A stretch of 25,726 bases of DNA from a virus: positions 1-25,726 of the IMG/VR virus record IMGVR_UViG_3300030333_007450. One strand, 5' to 3'. Shown here one piece after another: positions 3,631 to 11,171 of the stretch. The notes below the pieces were generated by a model that worked only from the letters and a program-made list of their open reading frames with translations, did not search any database and was not told the origin of the DNA. The stretch's first letter is position 1; each line of letters begins with the position of its first letter. A program made the translations under genes and the position numbers.

Positions 3631-4286
3631 TGTTTTAGGGTTTCGTATGCGACTATCATGTCATTGAAAACGCTTTTGAACTCATCATCATCTTTCAGTT
3701 CGCCATAGACTTTTTTTATGTTTGCTTTGTTTTTTTGGTAAAAGTCTCTGCATTTTTGTTCTTCGGGTTTACCCATGACTTTCCTTAACTCGTCAACATA
3801 CTGAGATATTTCACTGAAGGAAGAAATCTTAGCCCCTTTTTCTGACAAAAGAACATATCTTTTGTTGAGGTCTGGTGCTTTTTCCTTGTTGTGTATTGCG
3901 TTTTCAACCTCAAAAGAACTGGCGAACTCTCCGCCGCCGAGCCCAAGGTTTGCCAATGCCCTACCGATTGCTGATGTTTCGCAGTTTTCAAGGGCAGAAG
4001 TTTTATTGATCATTCCTCTGTTCCTAAACTCTTCTGCAAACCCGTTCGCTACGGTTCTCCATTCTCCATCTTGGTATATAGTTATCGTTGCTTTAACGAC
4101 TACCCTCTCAAGATCGCTGAAGACAACTTCAGTCGCAATGTTCGCATCACTACCGTAATGCCTTCTGAACATATCAGTTCTTGTTGGAACAGTGGCATAC
4201 CATTTGCCTTTTATGTTCACTTTGTTTGGTTCAACGTCTTCTAACGAAGACAAGCCGATTATGGCCTGATTCAATCTATCCATCAT
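3627..4286 (-). CDS. erf: ERF/Rad52-like single-strand annealing protein
   Basis: This is predicted to anneal complementary single DNA strands during phage recombination. From the ATG at 4286 (4-base ATGA overlap with the nuclease stop; GGAG close by) the product is 219 residues; frames starting at 4295 or 4337 are longer alternatives. The key signature is NKTSALENCETSAIGRALAN (about 94-113) followed by LGLGGG, characteristic of phage ERF-superfamily proteins, where it forms the helix and glycine turn of the annealing core. The segment YATVPTRTDMFRRHYG precedes it. The C-terminal third is charged and helical. Together with the upstream PD-(D/E)XK nuclease and the downstream SSB-like protein it forms a standard phage recombination set. 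Confidence 0.8.
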   Translation of the reverse strand: MMDRLNQAIIGLSSLEDVEPNKVNIKGKWYATVPTRTDMFRRHYGSDANIATEVVFSDLERVVVKATITIYQDGEWRTVANGFAEEFRNRGMINKTSALENCETSAIGRALANLGLGGGEFASSFEVENAIHNKEKAPDLNKRYVLLSEKGAKISSFSEISQYVDELRKVMGKPEEQKCRDFYQKNKANIKKVYGELKDDDEFKSVFNDMIVAYETLKQ

Positions 4287-5083
4287 TTTCTCCATATAGT
4301 TTTTGCATTCGCTGTTTCTTCCTCGCTCCACATCCAAGAATCAAAGTTTGGGAAGAATGCTTGTGCTATTTCATTTTTATCACCGATAGAGAGCAAACGC
4401 TGTATTGCTTTTGCTCCGCTAATCAAGTCTTCAAATTGTTCTTCAACGTCATCAACGACTATGGAACGAACATCTTTTTTTGTTTTGGTTACGTTGACAT
4501 AATCAACAATCGCGGTTGACTGTTCCGCAGTTGCGTAAAGAGAAAGTTGCCTTTTAACTGTTTCGGGTATCTTTGATGGCATGCGGCTTACTGTTTTGAT
4601 GTCTCTAACAACCCCTTCATATTGAAGGTCAATGAAACCGATGATTGGAACAGGCAACCCAACATCAATGCTGACGTGTTTTTGATATGAAATCGGTTTA
4701 CCCATGTCACCATAGTAGGGGCATGCTGTTTGTATATATGTTGGTATCAGCCTTCTTTCTTTTAAAATCTTTGGGTCTGAATGGTCTGCTTCATTGTGTT
4801 CGGTTAGGCCTCTGAACCTTTTGATCGCTAACTCTTTTACTTTTTCTATGCTCGGTTTCTCTGAACTGAGGTATATTCCTATTGCTTCGTCAACCACTAT
4901 TCCTCTCCAAGCGGGTGCGCCTGCTTTGGTTGGCATGTTGAATAGGTATTTGTATATGAACTTACACGGATCAGTGATATAGGTGTTGATGGAACTCGCT
5001 GACAAATGCTCAATTCCATGTTCTTCAAAATCATTTTTCATCATACATGCCTCAATGTTATTGTTTTTCAATTGAAACATCAT
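4283..5083 (-). CDS. PD-(D/E)XK (RecB/Cas4-like) nuclease
   Basis: The 266-residue protein shows the RecB-like nuclease core: SASSINTYITDPCKFIYKYL near the N-terminus (residues 28-48), D152 in GFIDL, D161-I-K163 (the D-x-K catalytic triplet) and QLSLY (179-183), the QxxxY motif. Cas4/RecB-type family members usually have a histidine in a GxxxH motif; here the equivalent segment reads GIVVDEAI, with Asp65 in that place. ATG 5083 has AAAGGA six bases upstream; a second start at 5044 with GAGG would remove 13 residues and clear the promoter. It probably resects DNA ends for the ERF-like protein encoded next, which starts within its stop codon. Confidence 0.75.
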   Translation of the reverse strand: MMFQLKNNNIEACMMKNDFEEHGIEHLSASSINTYITDPCKFIYKYLFNMPTKAGAPAWRGIVVDEAIGIYLSSEKPSIEKVKELAIKRFRGLTEHNEADHSDPKILKERRLIPTYIQTACPYYGDMGKPISYQKHVSIDVGLPVPIIGFIDLQYEGVVRDIKTVSRMPSKIPETVKRQLSLYATAEQSTAIVDYVNVTKTKKDVRSIVVDDVEEQFEDLISGAKAIQRLLSIGDKNEIAQAFFPNFDSWMWSEEETANAKTIWRK

Positions 5084-5139: not shown

Positions 5140-5376
5140 ATGAAGCTCAGACAATACCTAGAAGAAGAAAAATTAACACAAGTTAAGTTCATTGATATTT
5201 GTGAAATGGCCACTGGGAAAACTATACCCCAACCGACACTCGCTAAATGGATATTGGGTGTTCGCATACCAAGGAAAGCTGAGATGGAAATGATACATTC
5301 TATCACTGATGGTAAAGTACAACCGAACGATTTTTATAATTTAGAAGGACAGACATGGCATTCAAAACATACATGA
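5140..5376 (+). CDS. Cro-like helix-turn-helix regulator
   Basis: The 78-residue product is a compact helix-turn-helix protein. MKLRQYLEEEKLTQVKFIDI begins like lambda-type Cro proteins. The turn and recognition helix follow (IPQPTLAKWILG, 29-40), then RIPRKAEMEMIHSITDG and VQPNDFY; the PNDFY ending of the fold is shared by many Cro/CI-family phage regulators. The start has GGA four bases ahead. It is the first gene rightward of the palindromic operator and overlaps the ParB-like gene by 22 bases. It is likely an autorepressor that also controls the leftward nuclease operon. No CI-like partner with a cleavable domain is seen, so lysogeny cannot be inferred. Confidence 0.75.
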   Translation: MKLRQYLEEEKLTQVKFIDICEMATGKTIPQPTLAKWILGVRIPRKAEMEMIHSITDGKVQPNDFYNLEGQTWHSKHT

Positions 5377-5975
5377 AAAAACTTGATGAGATCACACCTT
5401 ACGAAGACAACGCGAGGATAAATGATAAAGCTGTTGAGAAAGTGGCGCAAAGTATAAGCGAATATGGTTGGCAATCACCAATTGTTGTTGATGAAGAAAT
5501 GGTAATACTCGCTGGCCATTCAAGGCTGAAAGCAGCGAAGATGTTAGAAATCAAAACAGTTCCCGTCAAAGTTGCTGAAGGCCTCACAGATGCACAGAAA
5601 ATGGCATATAGAATAATGGATAATAAATCGCAAGATTTCGCACAGTGGGACAATAAGCTCCTTTCTAAAGAGTTTGAGAGGTTAGCGAATATTGATTTTG
5701 ATTTGAACATGACTGGTTTCGGCCTTGATGAAATAGCTAAACTCAATGAGAAGATGCTTGAGTTTGATTCACCTGAAGACGTCAATGAAATCGGTTTTGA
5801 TATCAATGAGAACTTTGAGGTTCCCGAAACGAATGTGAAATCCTTCATGTTGCTTTATGACTTGAAACAGCTAGAGGAATTCAAAGGGATGCTTGATGTA
5901 TTGAAAGAAAAATACAACATTGAGAATTATTCAGATATCGTGTTTGAGGCCGTCAAGAATGAGTCAAACACCTAG
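5355..5975 (+). CDS. ParB-like N-terminal domain protein
   Basis: The 206-residue protein carries a ParB/sulfiredoxin-type domain: ITPYEDNARINDKAVEKVAQ (13-32), SPIVVDEEMVILAGHSRLKA with the GHSR motif at 54-57, then VPVKVAEGLTDAQKMAYRI and NKSQDFAQWD (90-99). In phages this domain often precedes a DNA methyltransferase in one polypeptide; here no methyltransferase motif follows, only an acidic region and a tail (KSFMLLYDLKQLEEFKGML...) like the end of those proteins. The start at 5355 has AAGGA five bases upstream; ATG 5373 is the alternative. ParB-like proteins bind CTP/ATP or nick DNA. Its place directly before a base oxygenase suggests a DNA-targeting role, which is inference. Confidence 0.8.
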   Translation: MAFKTYMKKLDEITPYEDNARINDKAVEKVAQSISEYGWQSPIVVDEEMVILAGHSRLKAAKMLEIKTVPVKVAEGLTDAQKMAYRIMDNKSQDFAQWDNKLLSKEFERLANIDFDLNMTGFGLDEIAKLNEKMLEFDSPEDVNEIGFDINENFEVPETNVKSFMLLYDLKQLEEFKGMLDVLKEKYNIENYSDIVFEAVKNESNT

Positions 5976-6900
5976 ATATACATTCAGCCCAAAAATGACT
6001 GAAGAAGAAGCGAATCAGTTGATGGGCACATATGCAGAAGAAAAACACTTCAGCACTGTTATAAACGATGATTGTGATGCTTATAGCGATAAAGGTGAGC
6101 CGCTGTTTTTTTTCCGGAAAAATAAAATACCTTCCAAAATTTGCAAAGATGCGTACATAGGCCTCAAGCCTGCAGCAGTTATTAGTGAGAACAGGGGTAA
6201 CGCGGCAGGACCCCTTTCATATGCTGATGGCGCGACTGGTGTCAACGATGCCGCTAATAATGTTCAATTGAATGATCGCAGGTTCAGAGTGGTCAAGCAA
6301 GACGGAACTTTGTCAAAAGTTTCAAGGGCAAAAAAAGTTCGCTCAGGTATTGCCGGATATTTTGATCGCAATGTGAGGTTTCCATATTGTAGGCAAACAC
6401 AATACACAGAACAACATCTTGAGAAGTTCGCAAAGGGTGTTCCGATGTTGAAATATATCTCAAAAATGTACGAACAAGCTTGTCCAGAAAGATACGCGCA
6501 ACATAAAGAAGTTGTTGACCGCACTAGTAGTGATTTCGTGATTACGGACACAGTGTTCACAACTGTCACCATCAACAAGAATTTTCAGACCGCATATCAC
6601 AAAGATGCAGGCGATCTTGAGTGTGGCCTCGGAAACCTTGCTGTTTTAAGCGCAGGAAGTTATGAGGGTGGTTATACAGTCATGCCGAGGTGGGATGTCG
6701 CTTTTGATTTATCAAGTGGAGATGTTTGCTTTTTTGACGTGCACGAAGTACATGGAAATACAGCAATGACTTCAAAAAGGCCGTTTGAACGCATATCAAT
6801 CGTTTGTTATTACAGGAAACACATGGTTCATTGTGGAACCATCAAAGAAGAGCTTGAAAGGGCGAAAAACAGGAAAGAGGGAGATAAAATAAACGTATGA
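5959..6900 (+). CDS. TET/JBP-family 2-oxoglutarate/Fe(II) DNA dioxygenase
   Basis: Predicted to hydroxylate the 5-methyl group of a pyrimidine in DNA using 2-oxoglutarate, oxygen and Fe(II). From ATG 5959 (GAGG upstream, 17-base overlap with the ParB-like gene) it has 313 residues. The C-terminal half is a double-stranded beta-helix with the TET/JBP signature: TTVTINKNFQTAYHKDAGD with H214-x-D216 as metal ligands, a G-rich turn SAGSYEGGYTVMPRW, FDLSSGDVCFF, then VHEVHGN with the distal His (265), and R278 in RISIVCYYR for 2-oxoglutarate. The N-terminal region has conserved-looking RGNAAGPLS and FPYCRQTQYT segments seen in phage versions. Known phage TET proteins oxidise 5-methylcytosine; JBP acts on thymine. 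Which base is used here cannot be told from sequence. Confidence 0.85.
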   Translation: MSQTPRYTFSPKMTEEEANQLMGTYAEEKHFSTVINDDCDAYSDKGEPLFFFRKNKIPSKICKDAYIGLKPAAVISENRGNAAGPLSYADGATGVNDAANNVQLNDRRFRVVKQDGTLSKVSRAKKVRSGIAGYFDRNVRFPYCRQTQYTEQHLEKFAKGVPMLKYISKMYEQACPERYAQHKEVVDRTSSDFVITDTVFTTVTINKNFQTAYHKDAGDLECGLGNLAVLSAGSYEGGYTVMPRWDVAFDLSSGDVCFFDVHEVHGNTAMTSKRPFERISIVCYYRKHMVHCGTIKEELERAKNRKEGDKINV

Positions 6901-7679
6901 GAATATTGATACCAACATATATGAGAGAAGAATCTCAAATTTCATTGAAAGGGATTAAGCAAGTATATGATGGCGAAGTTTTTTTGTGCACGGACACAAC
7001 GAGATATGATTACCTCAAAGCATTGAACCCTTGGGCTGAAGTTATAGATATTGGAATTACTGACGGAATCGCTGACACGCGACAGAAGCTCGTTGATATC
7101 GCTGACGGTGAAAAAATATTCATCGTTGATGACCAAGTTAAATTTTATGAAAGAACGCCAGCAGGCCGAATCGTCAGCATAAGCCCCAAAGGTTTTAAAA
7201 AAATGATGAACGAAATAGAAGATGCTCTTGACGATTATGCTTGGGTGGGTGTTTCAGACAGGGCAGGTAACAACAGGGTTACAGAAGGCACAGCAGAATT
7301 ACAACGATCATATTCATGTTATGGAATCAACACAAAAACATGGAAAGAGAACGAGATAAACTTCAATGGATTGTATGAAAAAACTGGCGCCAAGTTGTTT
7401 GAAGATTTTTATGCATTACTCAGTATGTTCACCAAAGGAATGAAGAATCTCGTTTTATATAACTATGCTTTTCATCATCCGCACGGGAAAGTCGGCGGTA
7501 ACTCAGAATACAGAACAAATGAAACACAAGCATTTTGTTACACGATGTTGAGAGATGAGTTTCCAGACTTCGTCAAATTGAAATACAAAAAGAACCCAAC
7601 ATGGACGACAGACAGGTCAGATGACAAGCGTTTAGAGTCAATAATTTCATGGAAAAAAGCATACGAAAGCAGTCAATAG
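6897..7679 (+). CDS. GT-A-fold glycosyltransferase-like protein (TET-associated type)
   Basis: The 260-residue protein begins MRILIPTYMREE, a GT-A Rossmann strand, and continues with GIADTRQKLVD (57-67) and IFIVDDQVKFY (74-84), whose D78-D79 sit where GT-A enzymes bind metal and nucleotide sugar (DxD-like). WVGVSDRAGNNR (116-127) and AKLFEDFYALLSM with E169-D170, the usual acceptor/catalytic acid position, follow. This arrangement fits the TET/JBP-associated glycosyltransferases predicted by comparative genomics of phages. The start overlaps the dioxygenase stop by 4 bases (ATGA), so the two are translationally coupled. Likely role: transfer a sugar or similar group to the hydroxymethyl made by the dioxygenase. 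The donor is unknown. Confidence 0.75.
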   Translation: MRILIPTYMREESQISLKGIKQVYDGEVFLCTDTTRYDYLKALNPWAEVIDIGITDGIADTRQKLVDIADGEKIFIVDDQVKFYERTPAGRIVSISPKGFKKMMNEIEDALDDYAWVGVSDRAGNNRVTEGTAELQRSYSCYGINTKTWKENEINFNGLYEKTGAKLFEDFYALLSMFTKGMKNLVLYNYAFHHPHGKVGGNSEYRTNETQAFCYTMLRDEFPDFVKLKYKKNPTWTTDRSDDKRLESIISWKKAYESSQ

Positions 7680-8017
7680 TTCTTGATCTTGATGATACGA
7701 TCTGTTTTCCAGACCATAATCAGAGCGACACCTTTCTGAAATACGGAAGAGCGAAACCGAATAGCGCTGTCATTGAGAAGTTGAGAGAGCTTCATTCAAA
7801 TGGTTGGTACATCATCATAAATTCAGCGAGAAGAATGCTCACACACTCTGGTGATATTTCTAAAATTGAAGCTGACGTTTCACTCACAACGAAAGTTTGG
7901 TTACGAGATAATGGCGTTCCGTATGATGAGTTGATATTCGGCAAACCATATTCAAGCAGTTATTACGTTGACGACAAAGCGATGACAATTGAGGGTTTTA
8001 TAAATTGGCGAACCTAG
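7649..8017 (+). CDS. HAD-superfamily phosphatase, small capless type
   Basis: The 122-residue protein has all HAD motifs: VLDLDDTI (nucleophile D13, acid D15), IIINSAR (S59), a lysine in FGKP (K99) and YYVDDKAM (D108, D109). The segment AKPNSAVIEKLRELHSNGW is typical of the small HAD phosphatases found in capsule and lipooligosaccharide loci, often beside sugar nucleotidyltransferases. It overlaps the glycosyltransferase gene by 31 bases and the nucleotidyltransferase-kinase gene by 13. Its likely role is to remove a phosphate from an intermediate during synthesis of the activated donor. The substrate cannot be read from sequence. Confidence 0.8.
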   Translation: MEKSIRKQSIVLDLDDTICFPDHNQSDTFLKYGRAKPNSAVIEKLRELHSNGWYIIINSARRMLTHSGDISKIEADVSLTTKVWLRDNGVPYDELIFGKPYSSSYYVDDKAMTIEGFINWRT

Positions 8018-9483
8018 TTATACCAGCCGCAGGCTCTGCAACAAGGCTTCAGCCATTGTCAGCTAACACCAGTAAAATAATGGTCAGAGTTAACGGTAAA
8101 CCATGCCTTGATTATATAGTTGAAAGCGCGAAGAAAAGTTCAGAAATAGAAGAGATCGTGGTTGTTGATGGCGCTTTTGATGATATAAGAAGATATTGTT
8201 CAAACAAACACCCTGAAATAAAGTTTGCCAAACAACCTGAGCTAAAAGGACCGAGAGACGCTGTTATGATAGGTTTGAATGCTCTTGAATGTAAGGAAAC
8301 ATCGGTTGTTGTTTGGTTAGGTGATGCGATAATATTACACGATGAATTACCAATAGGAACTGATTTTTTACTCTGTAAAGAAGTTGATGACCATAGCGCT
8401 TGGTGTATGTGGGACGGAAAGAACTATTGGGACAAGCCGAAAGAAAACATAAACAATGCGCACGCACTTGTTGGCCTTTATTCTTTCAAAGATGCAAAAC
8501 TTGCAACGGAATGTTTCAACGAAAGTGATAGTTATGATATTTCAGACGCGCTGAAGCGCTATCAAGAGTTTGGCGCTTTTGAAAAAATATTGACCGAAGA
8601 ATGGTATGACATCGGAGAGCTGCAAACATACTACAAAACTTGTGCGAGTTTGTTGAATCAAAAATCAAGGATTTTCAACAATTTAGTCTATGATCCCACC
8701 ATAGGAACAATCACAAAACTGCCTGACTATCACGATGAGAGCTCAATACAGAAGATTAAAAACGAGAAGAATTGGTATGCCTCACTCAACAACGAACAGA
8801 GTTTTTTTACCCCTAGGATAATGCGTGAAAAAAATGAATTGACGATGTCCTATGAGGCCGGAACATTGCTTTCAGACTTGATGTTGTATGATGATTTACC
8901 GAGTTCTGTTTGGGAGTATATTTTGAACAAAGTGTTTGAGATCAAAAGGAATTATTTTGAAGAAGCGTTGAATCATGAATTCATTGATTTCAGTGAGGAA
9001 TCAAGGAAAATGTGGCTCGGTAAAAGTGAAGAAAGAATAAAACGAACAACCTTTAGCAATGGCGAGAAGTCAAAATTGTTAGAAATAGCACAAACACTCT
9101 GGAAGAAAACAAGGCCTATAAATTGTATGCATGGCGATTTACATTTAGGGAACATACTATATAACCAAACAACTGATCAATTTAAATTCATAGACCCTAG
9201 AGGCCAATATGGTGATCTAGTTGAGACAACTCTCGGAGATAACCTTTACGATTATTGCAAATTATCACACGACTTGATCCATGGTTATAACGCTATGCAA
9301 AATGGTGTTGAGCATAACCGAGTCGTTACTGACGTTTTCGTCAAACTGCTCAAGAAACACGGCCTACCCATCAAAGAGATACATGATGGCGGTTTATTGT
9401 TATTGGCGACCTGTATACCTTTACACTATGAAGACGCTGTGAGGCAAGAACGATTCATGCGATATGTTCAATCAAAATTATAA
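8005..9483 (+). CDS. Bifunctional nucleotidyltransferase / APH-like kinase
   Basis: The 492-residue protein is a fusion. Residues 1-215 are an NTP transferase: VIPAAGSATRL (5-15) with R14, K24 in SKIMVRVNGKP, WLGD (104-107), and WYDIG (200-204) for the second metal. Residues 222-492 are a choline/aminoglycoside-kinase fold: FNNLVYD...ITKLP, an E-x-x-WYASL segment, the catalytic loop MHGDLHLGN (375-383, D378) and FIDPRG (D397 metal ligand). It would phosphorylate a small alcohol or sugar and link it to a nucleotide, as separate LicA and LicC do for choline, or as capsule enzymes do for unusual sugars. The start is TTG at 8005; the next Met would remove the nucleotide loop. The 3' end overlaps the convergent primase-helicase gene by 16 bases. 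Confidence 0.8.
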   Translation: MANLVIPAAGSATRLQPLSANTSKIMVRVNGKPCLDYIVESAKKSSEIEEIVVVDGAFDDIRRYCSNKHPEIKFAKQPELKGPRDAVMIGLNALECKETSVVVWLGDAIILHDELPIGTDFLLCKEVDDHSAWCMWDGKNYWDKPKENINNAHALVGLYSFKDAKLATECFNESDSYDISDALKRYQEFGAFEKILTEEWYDIGELQTYYKTCASLLNQKSRIFNNLVYDPTIGTITKLPDYHDESSIQKIKNEKNWYASLNNEQSFFTPRIMREKNELTMSYEAGTLLSDLMLYDDLPSSVWEYILNKVFEIKRNYFEEALNHEFIDFSEESRKMWLGKSEERIKRTTFSNGEKSKLLEIAQTLWKKTRPINCMHGDLHLGNILYNQTTDQFKFIDPRGQYGDLVETTLGDNLYDYCKLSHDLIHGYNAMQNGVEHNRVVTDVFVKLLKKHGLPIKEIHDGGLLLLATCIPLHYEDAVRQERFMRYVQSKL

Positions 9484-11171
9484 TCATTCCAATCATCGGG
9501 CATGTTTTGTGTTTCATAATTTCTCGTTTTAAGGTTATAAACGAACTTGGCTTCACCGATTTTCCCGTATAAATCCTGTTCTCTGATCTTACGAATGATG
9601 ACCCTAGTTGAGTTTTCATCAAAATCTCGGTGTACGGTCATGATTGCATCAGATTGGTTGTGCCAATGAGCCGCTCCGCTTATATCATATGCGGTTGGCG
9701 GCAAGTAACCGCCACCATCCGTTTTTGGTAGTTTCGTCGGGTGTGCCACAACCCATGTGACTATGTCATGTATTTTTGAGAATCGCTTACATGTGGATAT
9801 AAAATCCCTGATGTGTTCATCTTCTCTCGCTCTACCCTGTCTTTTCGCATCAACTTCGTTATAGGGGTCAATTATCAGACCATCTATTGAGTATTTGAAA
9901 CAAGCGCTTTTCGCAACCGAAAGTATATAGTCAATGTTGGGAACTGATTCACGAGCCTCAATGAAATAGAAATGTTTATGAATCCAACGCATACCTTCGG
10001 CAATTTCTTCTTTCGTCATCCTAGTATCAAGCGTTTGGTCAAAAGGTTTCTTCGTGTACATCTGCAACAATCTCCTGATGTGCATTGATGTTGAATGTTC
10101 AGGGCTGAATACAGCGAACCGCATATTATGATTCAAAGCCAAATTCAGCAAAATTTGATCAAGGAACAGGCTCTTACCATGGTTTGGTATTCCTGTTATC
10201 ACATGAAAAGTTCCTTTCATAACTTTATATATATCGTCAAGGCCTTTCATTCCTATCGTGTATGGCTTCTCATAGTTGCCTTCATATAAATCCTGTATCT
10301 GGTTCCAATAATCGTTCGCTGTATATAGGCCATCAACGGGATAAGGTTCGCAATTCTGTATCATTTCTCTGAGCATCACTGCTCCATGTTTCATGAGAAC
10401 CTCATTCGCATCTTTACAGCCCTCTGGCAATCTAACGTACCAGCACAAATCTTTGCCGAAACGATGTAATAGTTCTTTGTGCAAAGCCCTTCCGCTTTTG
10501 TCATTGTCTGTGAACAGTATTATCTTCTTGGCAACGAGAGGGCAGTTTCTGAGGGGCTCAAACCTCAAGTCATCCTTTTCGCCTTTGTATTCTTTGGGCG
10601 CACCGTTCGGTAATGTCGTTGCATAATTTATACCGACCTCTGCAAGCGATAGAACATCCATTTCACCTTCACAGAATACTACTGTGTCGCTCTTGTATAT
10701 GTTGTCATAATTATAAAGTGTTGGTTTCGTGTTCGGTGACTGCTTGAATGATTTGTCAAGGGTTCTGAATTTTATGTTCGCCAGTTGGCCTTCCTTGTCG
10801 TAGTATGGAAACGCAATCCACTTGCCGTCATTGTAAATTCTAAAAGAATCAACTGTTGTCTTGCTCAAGCCTCTTTCTTTGAGGTATTCATATACGAAGT
10901 CATCGTGTTTCTTTTCTTTCACAACCGGAGGAACATACTCTTTCTTCTTTTCATACCTTCTGTACTTGCCATAAGAAAGCGCCCAAGAACCTTTATACTC
11001 ACAATGGTGACAATACCATACTGCACTATCACTCTTGATCGTGAGTGATAGTGGGTTGTCTCTAGGGTTATGTTTATCTGGTTGGCAAACAGGGCATTTT
11101 ATCTTTTGGTTTCCTGTGTTTGTGTGCTTCGGGTTGATACCTTCCGCACTGAGTTTTTCATATAATTCCAT
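9468..11171 (-). CDS. Primase-helicase, T7 gp4/Twinkle-like
   Basis: This 567-residue replication protein primes and unwinds DNA at the fork. Domain order: zinc ribbon (C26, C29, C54, C57); TOPRIM primase core with VVFCEGEMDVL (E168) and LFTDNDKSG (D222, D224); linker; RecA-like hexameric helicase with Walker A GIPNHGKS (327-334), Walker B GLIIDPYNEV (D435), a VVAHPTK strand (sensor region near 475) and ISGAAHWHNQSDAI. All expected catalytic residues are present and the length is close to T7 gp4, so it looks full-length and active. It follows the winged-helix replication gene by two bases. No DNA polymerase is seen in the window; it must lie outside or be the host's. Confidence 0.92.
   Translation of the reverse strand: MELYEKLSAEGINPKHTNTGNQKIKCPVCQPDKHNPRDNPLSLTIKSDSAVWYCHHCEYKGSWALSYGKYRRYEKKKEYVPPVVKEKKHDDFVYEYLKERGLSKTTVDSFRIYNDGKWIAFPYYDKEGQLANIKFRTLDKSFKQSPNTKPTLYNYDNIYKSDTVVFCEGEMDVLSLAEVGINYATTLPNGAPKEYKGEKDDLRFEPLRNCPLVAKKIILFTDNDKSGRALHKELLHRFGKDLCWYVRLPEGCKDANEVLMKHGAVMLREMIQNCEPYPVDGLYTANDYWNQIQDLYEGNYEKPYTIGMKGLDDIYKVMKGTFHVITGIPNHGKSLFLDQILLNLALNHNMRFAVFSPEHSTSMHIRRLLQMYTKKPFDQTLDTRMTKEEIAEGMRWIHKHFYFIEARESVPNIDYILSVAKSACFKYSIDGLIIDPYNEVDAKRQGRAREDEHIRDFISTCKRFSKIHDIVTWVVAHPTKLPKTDGGGYLPPTAYDISGAAHWHNQSDAIMTVHRDFDENSTRVIIRKIREQDLYGKIGEAKFVYNLKTRNYETQNMPDDWNDYNFD

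Follow-up and report, generated by a model that had tools for sequence, protein, structure and literature searches.

Why would a virus carry a dioxygenase of the TET/JBP type in one overlapping gene run with a glycosyltransferase (GT) and enzymes that resemble those of sugar activation? The question is raised by IMG/VR virus record IMGVR_UViG_3300030333_007450, a 25.7-kb linear virus contig analyzed here from position 1 to 25,726 (the window). Five genes of this record encode a ParB-like protein, a TET, a GT, a HAD phosphatase and a nucleotidyltransferase fused to a kinase (NK), and head and packaging genes lie to the right of this island. A first-pass annotation had guessed that the five genes serve one DNA hypermodification pathway. 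Linkage in about 240 related loci (designated by L numbers) raised that guess to a well-supported proposal, and we conclude that the island is probably an operon for glycosylation of DNA bases after replication that brings its own sugar-donor enzymes.

TET relatives are common in viral contigs, with at least 536 and at least 594 confirmed matches in our scans. From the scan that returned at least 536 relatives the best 80 were examined and, together with the window, L002, L003 and the locus of pelagiphage HTVC112P, they make up 84 ParB-TET loci. A ParB-like gene stands directly before TET in all 77 of these loci that have upstream sequence, its end falling each time at the TET start or just within it; in the remaining seven the TET start is at most 266 bases from the contig end. 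Behind TET, a recognizable base-tailoring gene was found in 84 of 84 loci. This slot holds a GT or TAGT in 29 loci, a FkbM-like protein in 16, a cassette of an amino acid:DNA transferase (ADDT) with GATase, GNAT and P-loop kinase in 29, the kinase alone in nine and a cut GATase cassette in one. On a tree of 69 TETs the slot classes (GT, ADDT, FkbM and kinase-only) need at least 13 changes, and the TET active-site residues, R286 included, are constant between all of them. Because the slot is swapped while the active site stays invariant, one catalytic handle appears to feed different chemistries. The ParB-TET core with an exchangeable downstream slot is new here.

The donor genes showed linkage of a similar kind. 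Relatives of NK occurred in 137 stretches, the best 80 of which were examined, giving 81 NK loci with the window. HAD adjoins NK in every one of them. Where at least 4.4 kb of upstream sequence was available (52 loci, window included), 45 loci had a thymidylate-synthase homologue and seven had a TET, none had both and none had neither; all seven TET-bearing loci have the window's type of GT. Of 58 linked synthase homologues, 57 have the Asp of dCMP-type enzymes (D179 of T4 gp42), so the donor module would also serve DNA of the 5-hydroxymethylcytosine (5hmC) type. It is these linkages, of ParB with TET, of HAD with NK and of NK with a pyrimidine C5-modifying enzyme, that tie the island to DNA modification. 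The first-pass annotation had held that finding the genes unlinked in related phages would speak against the idea, and for the pairs ParB-TET, TET-GT and HAD-NK the relatives favor it.

The assignment of TET itself was firm at the level of family, as its Tet_JBP domain scored 82.8 bits against a curated cut-off of 34.9. The base dioxygenase had been described as having a complete catalytic set, and H214, D216, H265 and R278 are indeed all present (Table 1). R286, eight residues past the 2-oxoglutarate (2OG) arginine, would by its place be the base-contact position. Compared by sequence with solved structures, TET had only chance matches, which made a comparison of folds necessary. The structure model, built on 56 aligned sequences, had a pLDDT of 91.6, and VIA-align placed it closest to TET2 (Z 20.7), CMD1 (19.4), NgTET1 (17.7) and CcTet (16.6). 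The first AlkB homologue followed at Z 13.1, and AlkB and FTO (about 13) all fell below the TET-type folds. The ATG at 5959 lies inside a longer, TTG-started open reading frame (ORF) at 5920-6900. Host genomes yielded a TET like that of the window in three metagenome bins only. In a bog Gammaproteobacteria metagenome bin, a 1006-residue ORF (L095:5572-8592) spans the TET match. The TETs of DLP6, S-CBWM1, Cr30 and HTVC112P carry the record labels SNF2 or DnaJ. We rejected "SNF2 DNA repair protein", "DnaJ" and "phosphoheptose isomerase" as family names, as they look like annotation errors.

The window GT matched phrog_842, the beta-glucosyl-HMC-alpha-glucosyltransferase family (HMC, hydroxymethylcytosine). 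It is 42% identical to DLP6 AAY80_028 and about 27% identical to the GTs of LuckyBarnes. In the Pfam search it had no match to PF20691 (TAGT); by BLAST, PF20691 TAGT members join its cluster.

HAD is a relative of the capsule phosphatases of TIGR01689 and not a member, with a score of 76.5 bits against a curated cut-off of 162; its identity is 54% to an unannotated DLP6 ORF and 45% to the HAD of phage 9183. The kinase half of NK is APH/fructosamine/choline-kinase-like by Pfam. In the NK model the nucleotidyltransferase half has the fold of GalU and RmlA (UDP-glucose and dTDP-glucose pyrophosphorylases) at a Z of about 20; this half filled the list of the fold comparison, and the kinase half had no specific match to a solved kinase in it. 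Residues G10, R14, K24, D107, H376-G-D378, N383 and D397 of NK are invariant in its relatives. L002, L003, L016 and L017 have, in place of this nucleotidyltransferase, a HldE-like, non-homologous enzyme with an HxGH motif, accompanied by a HAD-kinase fusion; in L013-L015 an HxGH nucleotidyltransferase is fused to a cupin of the mannose-phosphate-isomerase type and followed by a TAGT. Since the same function is supplied by non-homologous genes, it is the function rather than the gene that is kept, which supports selection for a dedicated donor. In 68 of the 80 NK loci, all lacking TET, a C5-methyltransferase-like protein of about 400 residues lies beside HAD-NK (within L096-L175, e.g., L143:9104-10321 and L105:7461-8660), with PF00145 matches of 1e-23 to 1e-29 where tested. 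The PPC motif is kept in some of these proteins, and a plain ENV motif was found in none of those sampled.

The five genes belong to a rightward run of six (5140-9483), each overlapping the next, between two leftward blocks. As the first-pass annotation had stated, all five ORFs are present at 5355-9483 on the plus strand, in the direction opposite to the PD-(D/E)XK protein and primase-helicase blocks at their sides; consecutive genes of the set overlap by 4-31 bases. Searches of Pfam, PHROGs and NCBIfam assigned the island proteins to families, and the families predicted for the five matched well beyond chance. The HTH-like (helix-turn-helix) ORF that opens the run overlaps the start of the ParB-like gene, is kept directly upstream of it in 18 related loci and has a counterpart of 75% identity in L002. 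The GC content of the island (0.39) is the same as that of the remainder of the record, and a scan for promoters and terminators found nothing above chance.

Table 1. Features of the island and its flanks, with positions in the window.
Feature	Position	Strand	Supporting match or observation
PD-(D/E)XK-superfamily protein, left flank, outside island	4283..5083	-	PDDEXK_1 1.1e-9
Small HTH-like protein, 78 residues, probable first gene/regulator	5140..5376	+	HTH_3 weak, E 0.05
ParB-like protein, 206 residues	5355..5975	+	ParB_N 6.7e-7, phrog_620 1e-50
Predicted TET/JBP-type 2OG/Fe(II) DNA-base dioxygenase, 313 residues	5959..6900	+	Tet_JBP 2.1e-23
TET metal ligands H214 and D216 (HxD)	6598..6606	+	Invariant in 56 aligned sequences
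TET third metal ligand H265, 2OG arginine R278 and presumed base-contact residue R286	6751..6816	+	Invariant in 56 sequences
Predicted DNA GT, GT-A-like, remote TAGT kin, 260 residues	6897..7679	+	phrog_842 9.7e-39
HAD phosphatase, EcbF/BcbF-like, 122 residues, DLDDT motif intact	7649..8017	+	TIGR01689 1.7e-21
NK: nucleotidyltransferase (~1-222) fused to APH-type small-molecule kinase (~240-492)	8005..9483	+	NTP_transferase 8.6e-14
Primase-helicase, right flank, convergent with island	9468..11171	-	phrog_239 8e-87

The pathway that we infer, in its catalytic activities, donor step order, acceptor base, ParB role and anti-restriction purpose alike, would run as follows. The ParB-like protein, as the constant partner of TET, probably brings it to DNA, a role suggested by linkage. 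TET, placed by its family, fold and active site, would oxidize 5-methyl to 5-hydroxymethyl on a pyrimidine of the phage's DNA. HAD would dephosphorylate a sugar phosphate, and NK would phosphorylate the sugar at its anomeric carbon with its kinase half and form a nucleoside diphosphate (NDP) sugar with its nucleotidyltransferase half; this order is modeled by homology on the RB69-like arabinose module. The GT would then transfer the sugar from the NDP-sugar onto the hydroxymethyl base. The outcome would be virion DNA in which some of the bases bear a bulky sugar, presumably as protection against restriction and CRISPR.

The identity of the acceptor base is where the possible readings divide. 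TET may act JBP-like on thymine, with the GT making a phage counterpart of base J from the phage-activated sugar; this is our tentative first choice, held at somewhat short of an even chance. It is also possible, if on the doubtful side, that the acceptor is cytosine, in which case 5-methylcytosine (5mC) made by the host or by a methyltransferase outside the fragment would be oxidized by TET, and the GT would make glycosyl-5hmC. Thymine is favored by the absence of C5-methyltransferases (PF00145) from 34 of 34 ParB-TET records, the window and the complete HTVC112P included, a count in which fragments may miss one elsewhere. None was found either in the complete genomes of DLP6, P12024L, S-CBWM1 and Cr30, which have other TETs, and the search was able to detect the family, as five of seven other viral records were positive. 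A thymidylate-synthase homologue was likewise absent in 30 of 30 ParB-TET records, and thymidylate synthase was searched for and absent in the window record. Methylation by the host, for its part, would mark few sites. The repeated change of slot class over an invariant TET active site also points to thymine, as do the ADDTs that occupy the same slot, since the ADDT profile matches Ackermannviridae phages. By its annotation, the phiMAM1 ADDT resembles a ViI protein, and ViI DNA carries the hypermodified thymidine 5-NeOmdU (PMC6449724). In the ViI-like phage stretches examined there was no profile match for the cluster-1 P-loop kinase or the GATase of the ADDT cassettes, so that ADDT alone ties these cassettes to known thymidine chemistry. 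Cytosine is favored, in turn, by the C5-methyltransferases near TET in L147/L181 and L183, distant TET-linked GT-HAD-NK loci, by the dCMP-type hydroxymethylases with which the donor module is otherwise paired, and by the GT family being named after HMC glucosyltransferases. The phage TETs characterized so far reportedly act on 5mC (a finding attributed to Burke 2021), and D219 of the window TET is at the position of an NgTet1 Asp reported to contact the cytosine amino group. D219 and R286 were considered as discriminators between T and 5mC and rejected, because both are invariant across the ParB-TET cassette classes and the methyltransferase-bearing L147 has the same pair. On balance, we place thymine (base-J-like glycosyl-5-hydroxymethyluracil, glycosyl-5hmU) slightly ahead of 5mC (glycosyl-5hmC). 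With a little less than even confidence, we propose that ParB-TET is a thymine dioxygenase providing a 5hmU route in finished DNA, to which the island adds a phage-activated sugar, the slot being swapped among sugar, amino-acid and FkbM chemistries.

That the group transferred is a sugar also had to be weighed. We think it unlikely that the product of the donor genes is an activated non-sugar compound such as CDP-choline or a CDP-alcohol, which would leave the base with a phosphodiester-linked or some other group. Several points do weigh against our account of the donor. The best sequence match of the nucleotidyltransferase in the PDB is the phosphocholine cytidylyltransferase LicC (5e-7), which is what allows for a non-sugar group, and the kinase half resembles choline, fructosamine and APH kinases. 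In addition, a SIS isomerase (PF01380) is absent from the window record, a 25.7-kb fragment whose partners may lie outside it, and the RB69 SIS had no match in the 81 NK loci, which leaves room for a donor other than arabinose. Against a non-sugar donor stand the match of the nucleotidyltransferase model to GalU and RmlA, the hexosyltransferase family of the partner GT, and the service of homologous genes in arabinosylated phages. It is very improbable that GT-HAD-NK modifies a surface glycan or protein, lying near TET by coincidence. Capsule biosynthesis gave the HAD family its name and cyanophage HAD homologues occur within nucleotide-sugar clusters, but such a role is at odds with the C5-modifying enzyme found in 52 of 52 NK loci, and with a GT that is DNA-GT-like and whose gene overlaps that of TET.

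Glycosylation of phage DNA thus preferred, the ParB-TET core and its exchangeable tailoring slot give a simple reading rule that predicts several DNA modifications. L184-L260 and L018-L054 contain TETs of two distant clades linked to ADDT, P-loop kinase and GATase (plus GNAT), with C5-methyltransferase and thymidylate synthase both absent within the loci; from their gene content they are candidates for amino-acid hypermodification by a TET route. ADDT cassettes are also one of the main partners of TET in the DLP6-like clade, a second and distant one (43 of 85). ParB-TET is followed by a FkbM-like methyltransferase in 16 loci, including L005 (HTVC112P gp17-gp19), and in pelagiphages this protein possibly O-methylates the hydroxymethyl base. 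Behind the TET of L018 lies a 712-residue ORF (6868-9006) with a C-terminal ADDT domain and an N-terminal half that by eye is like a pyridoxal-phosphate-dependent enzyme. In L038 (6903-8479), ParB-TET is followed by an ADDT-like gene and then by one like an FAD-dependent amino-acid oxidase. In L008 (Cr30, 8436-10573), ADDT-like and TAGT-like genes lie about 1.7 kb downstream of TET, and a true thymidylate synthase is encoded elsewhere in Cr30. Since a pyrimidine C5-modifying enzyme was always present given enough flank, HAD with NK is a strong marker of DNA glycosylation, which can help to locate other sugar-modified phages and to predict whether a phage resists restriction and CRISPR. A thymine acceptor would mean that phages own a base-J-like pathway and that ParB-TET enzymes would serve to install 5hmU in DNA as a tool.

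How the island compares with known systems bears on the claim of the first-pass annotation that such a donor pathway was not described. This was only partly right, because similar sets already exist in DLP6, S-CBWM1 and 9183, and the module of RB69 is homologous; what stood is that a donor module on the TET route is new. In Stenotrophomonas phage DLP6 (AAY80_028-030), GT, an unannotated HAD ORF (L004:6910-7290, KU682439.2), NK and TET are side by side; other HAD relatives are labelled phosphoheptose isomerase. Synechococcus phage S-CBWM1 gp8-gp12 are five consecutive genes for TET, TAGT, HAD, nucleotidyltransferase and kinase. Both differ from the island in having no ParB partner and in their shuffled order or separate nucleotidyltransferase and kinase, with a TAGT as the S-CBWM1 GT, and their records do not present the set as a pathway, using labels such as "SNF2", "hypothetical" and "capsule phosphatase". 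Enterococcus phage 9183 has HAD and NK next to a thymidylate-synthase homologue. The functions of TET, GT, HAD and NK recur in several viral contigs with their order shuffled. The exact five-gene order occurred in the window only, and relatives are shuffled or have the nucleotidyltransferase non-homologously replaced.

Phage systems for cytosine hypermodification by TET and TAGT share with the island a TET gene followed by an overlapping GT gene. In those systems (Iyer 2013; Burke 2021), a C5-methyltransferase reportedly supplies 5mC and a host UDP-sugar suffices, whereas the island has no visible methyltransferase and encodes its own donor enzymes. The island donor genes are homologous to a module of RB69 and other Mosigvirus phages (ORF051c HAD, ORF052c kinase and ORF053c nucleotidyltransferase), likewise a phage-made donor for glycosylation of DNA bases; our HAD profile matched ORF051c at 2.6e-12, and the NK profiles matched ORF052c and ORF053c (6e-7 and 3e-6 for kinase and nucleotidyltransferase). 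RB69 DNA carries arabinose and the cluster was proposed to make UDP-arabinose (PMC6024577); a later correction gives the linkage as 5-ara-dC (PMC13390438), and the arabinosylation pathway itself is only proposed (PMC6024577, PMC13390438). Thanatos has a homologue of ORF052_053c for which a role in pentose modification is similarly suspected (PMC12838424). The RB69 system differs in that a 5-hodCMP synthase, a thymidylate-synthase homologue, makes the handle on the nucleotide, whereas in the island TET would make it on DNA, and in having an arabinose-5-phosphate isomerase (ORF055c), which the window record lacks. An RB69-type donor module on the TET route is new here, its parts being known singly and their combination not having been worked out.

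Thymidine hypermodification in ViI and M6 is related through the ADDT of the sister ParB-TET loci, which is homologous to that of ViI-like phages. These phages incorporate 5hmdU during replication (PMC6449724), with no TET oxidation of DNA, and the window has a GT in place of ADDT and kinase. Glucosylated 5hmdU was unreported in phages as of 2019 (PMC6449724). Base J of kinetoplastids (JBP1/2 and JGT; PMC4150806) differs from the island, which is of a phage, has unrelated partners and its own sugar donor, and for which thymine use is only a candidate; if the acceptor is T, both would follow the same logic of TET/JBP oxidation and then glycosylation.

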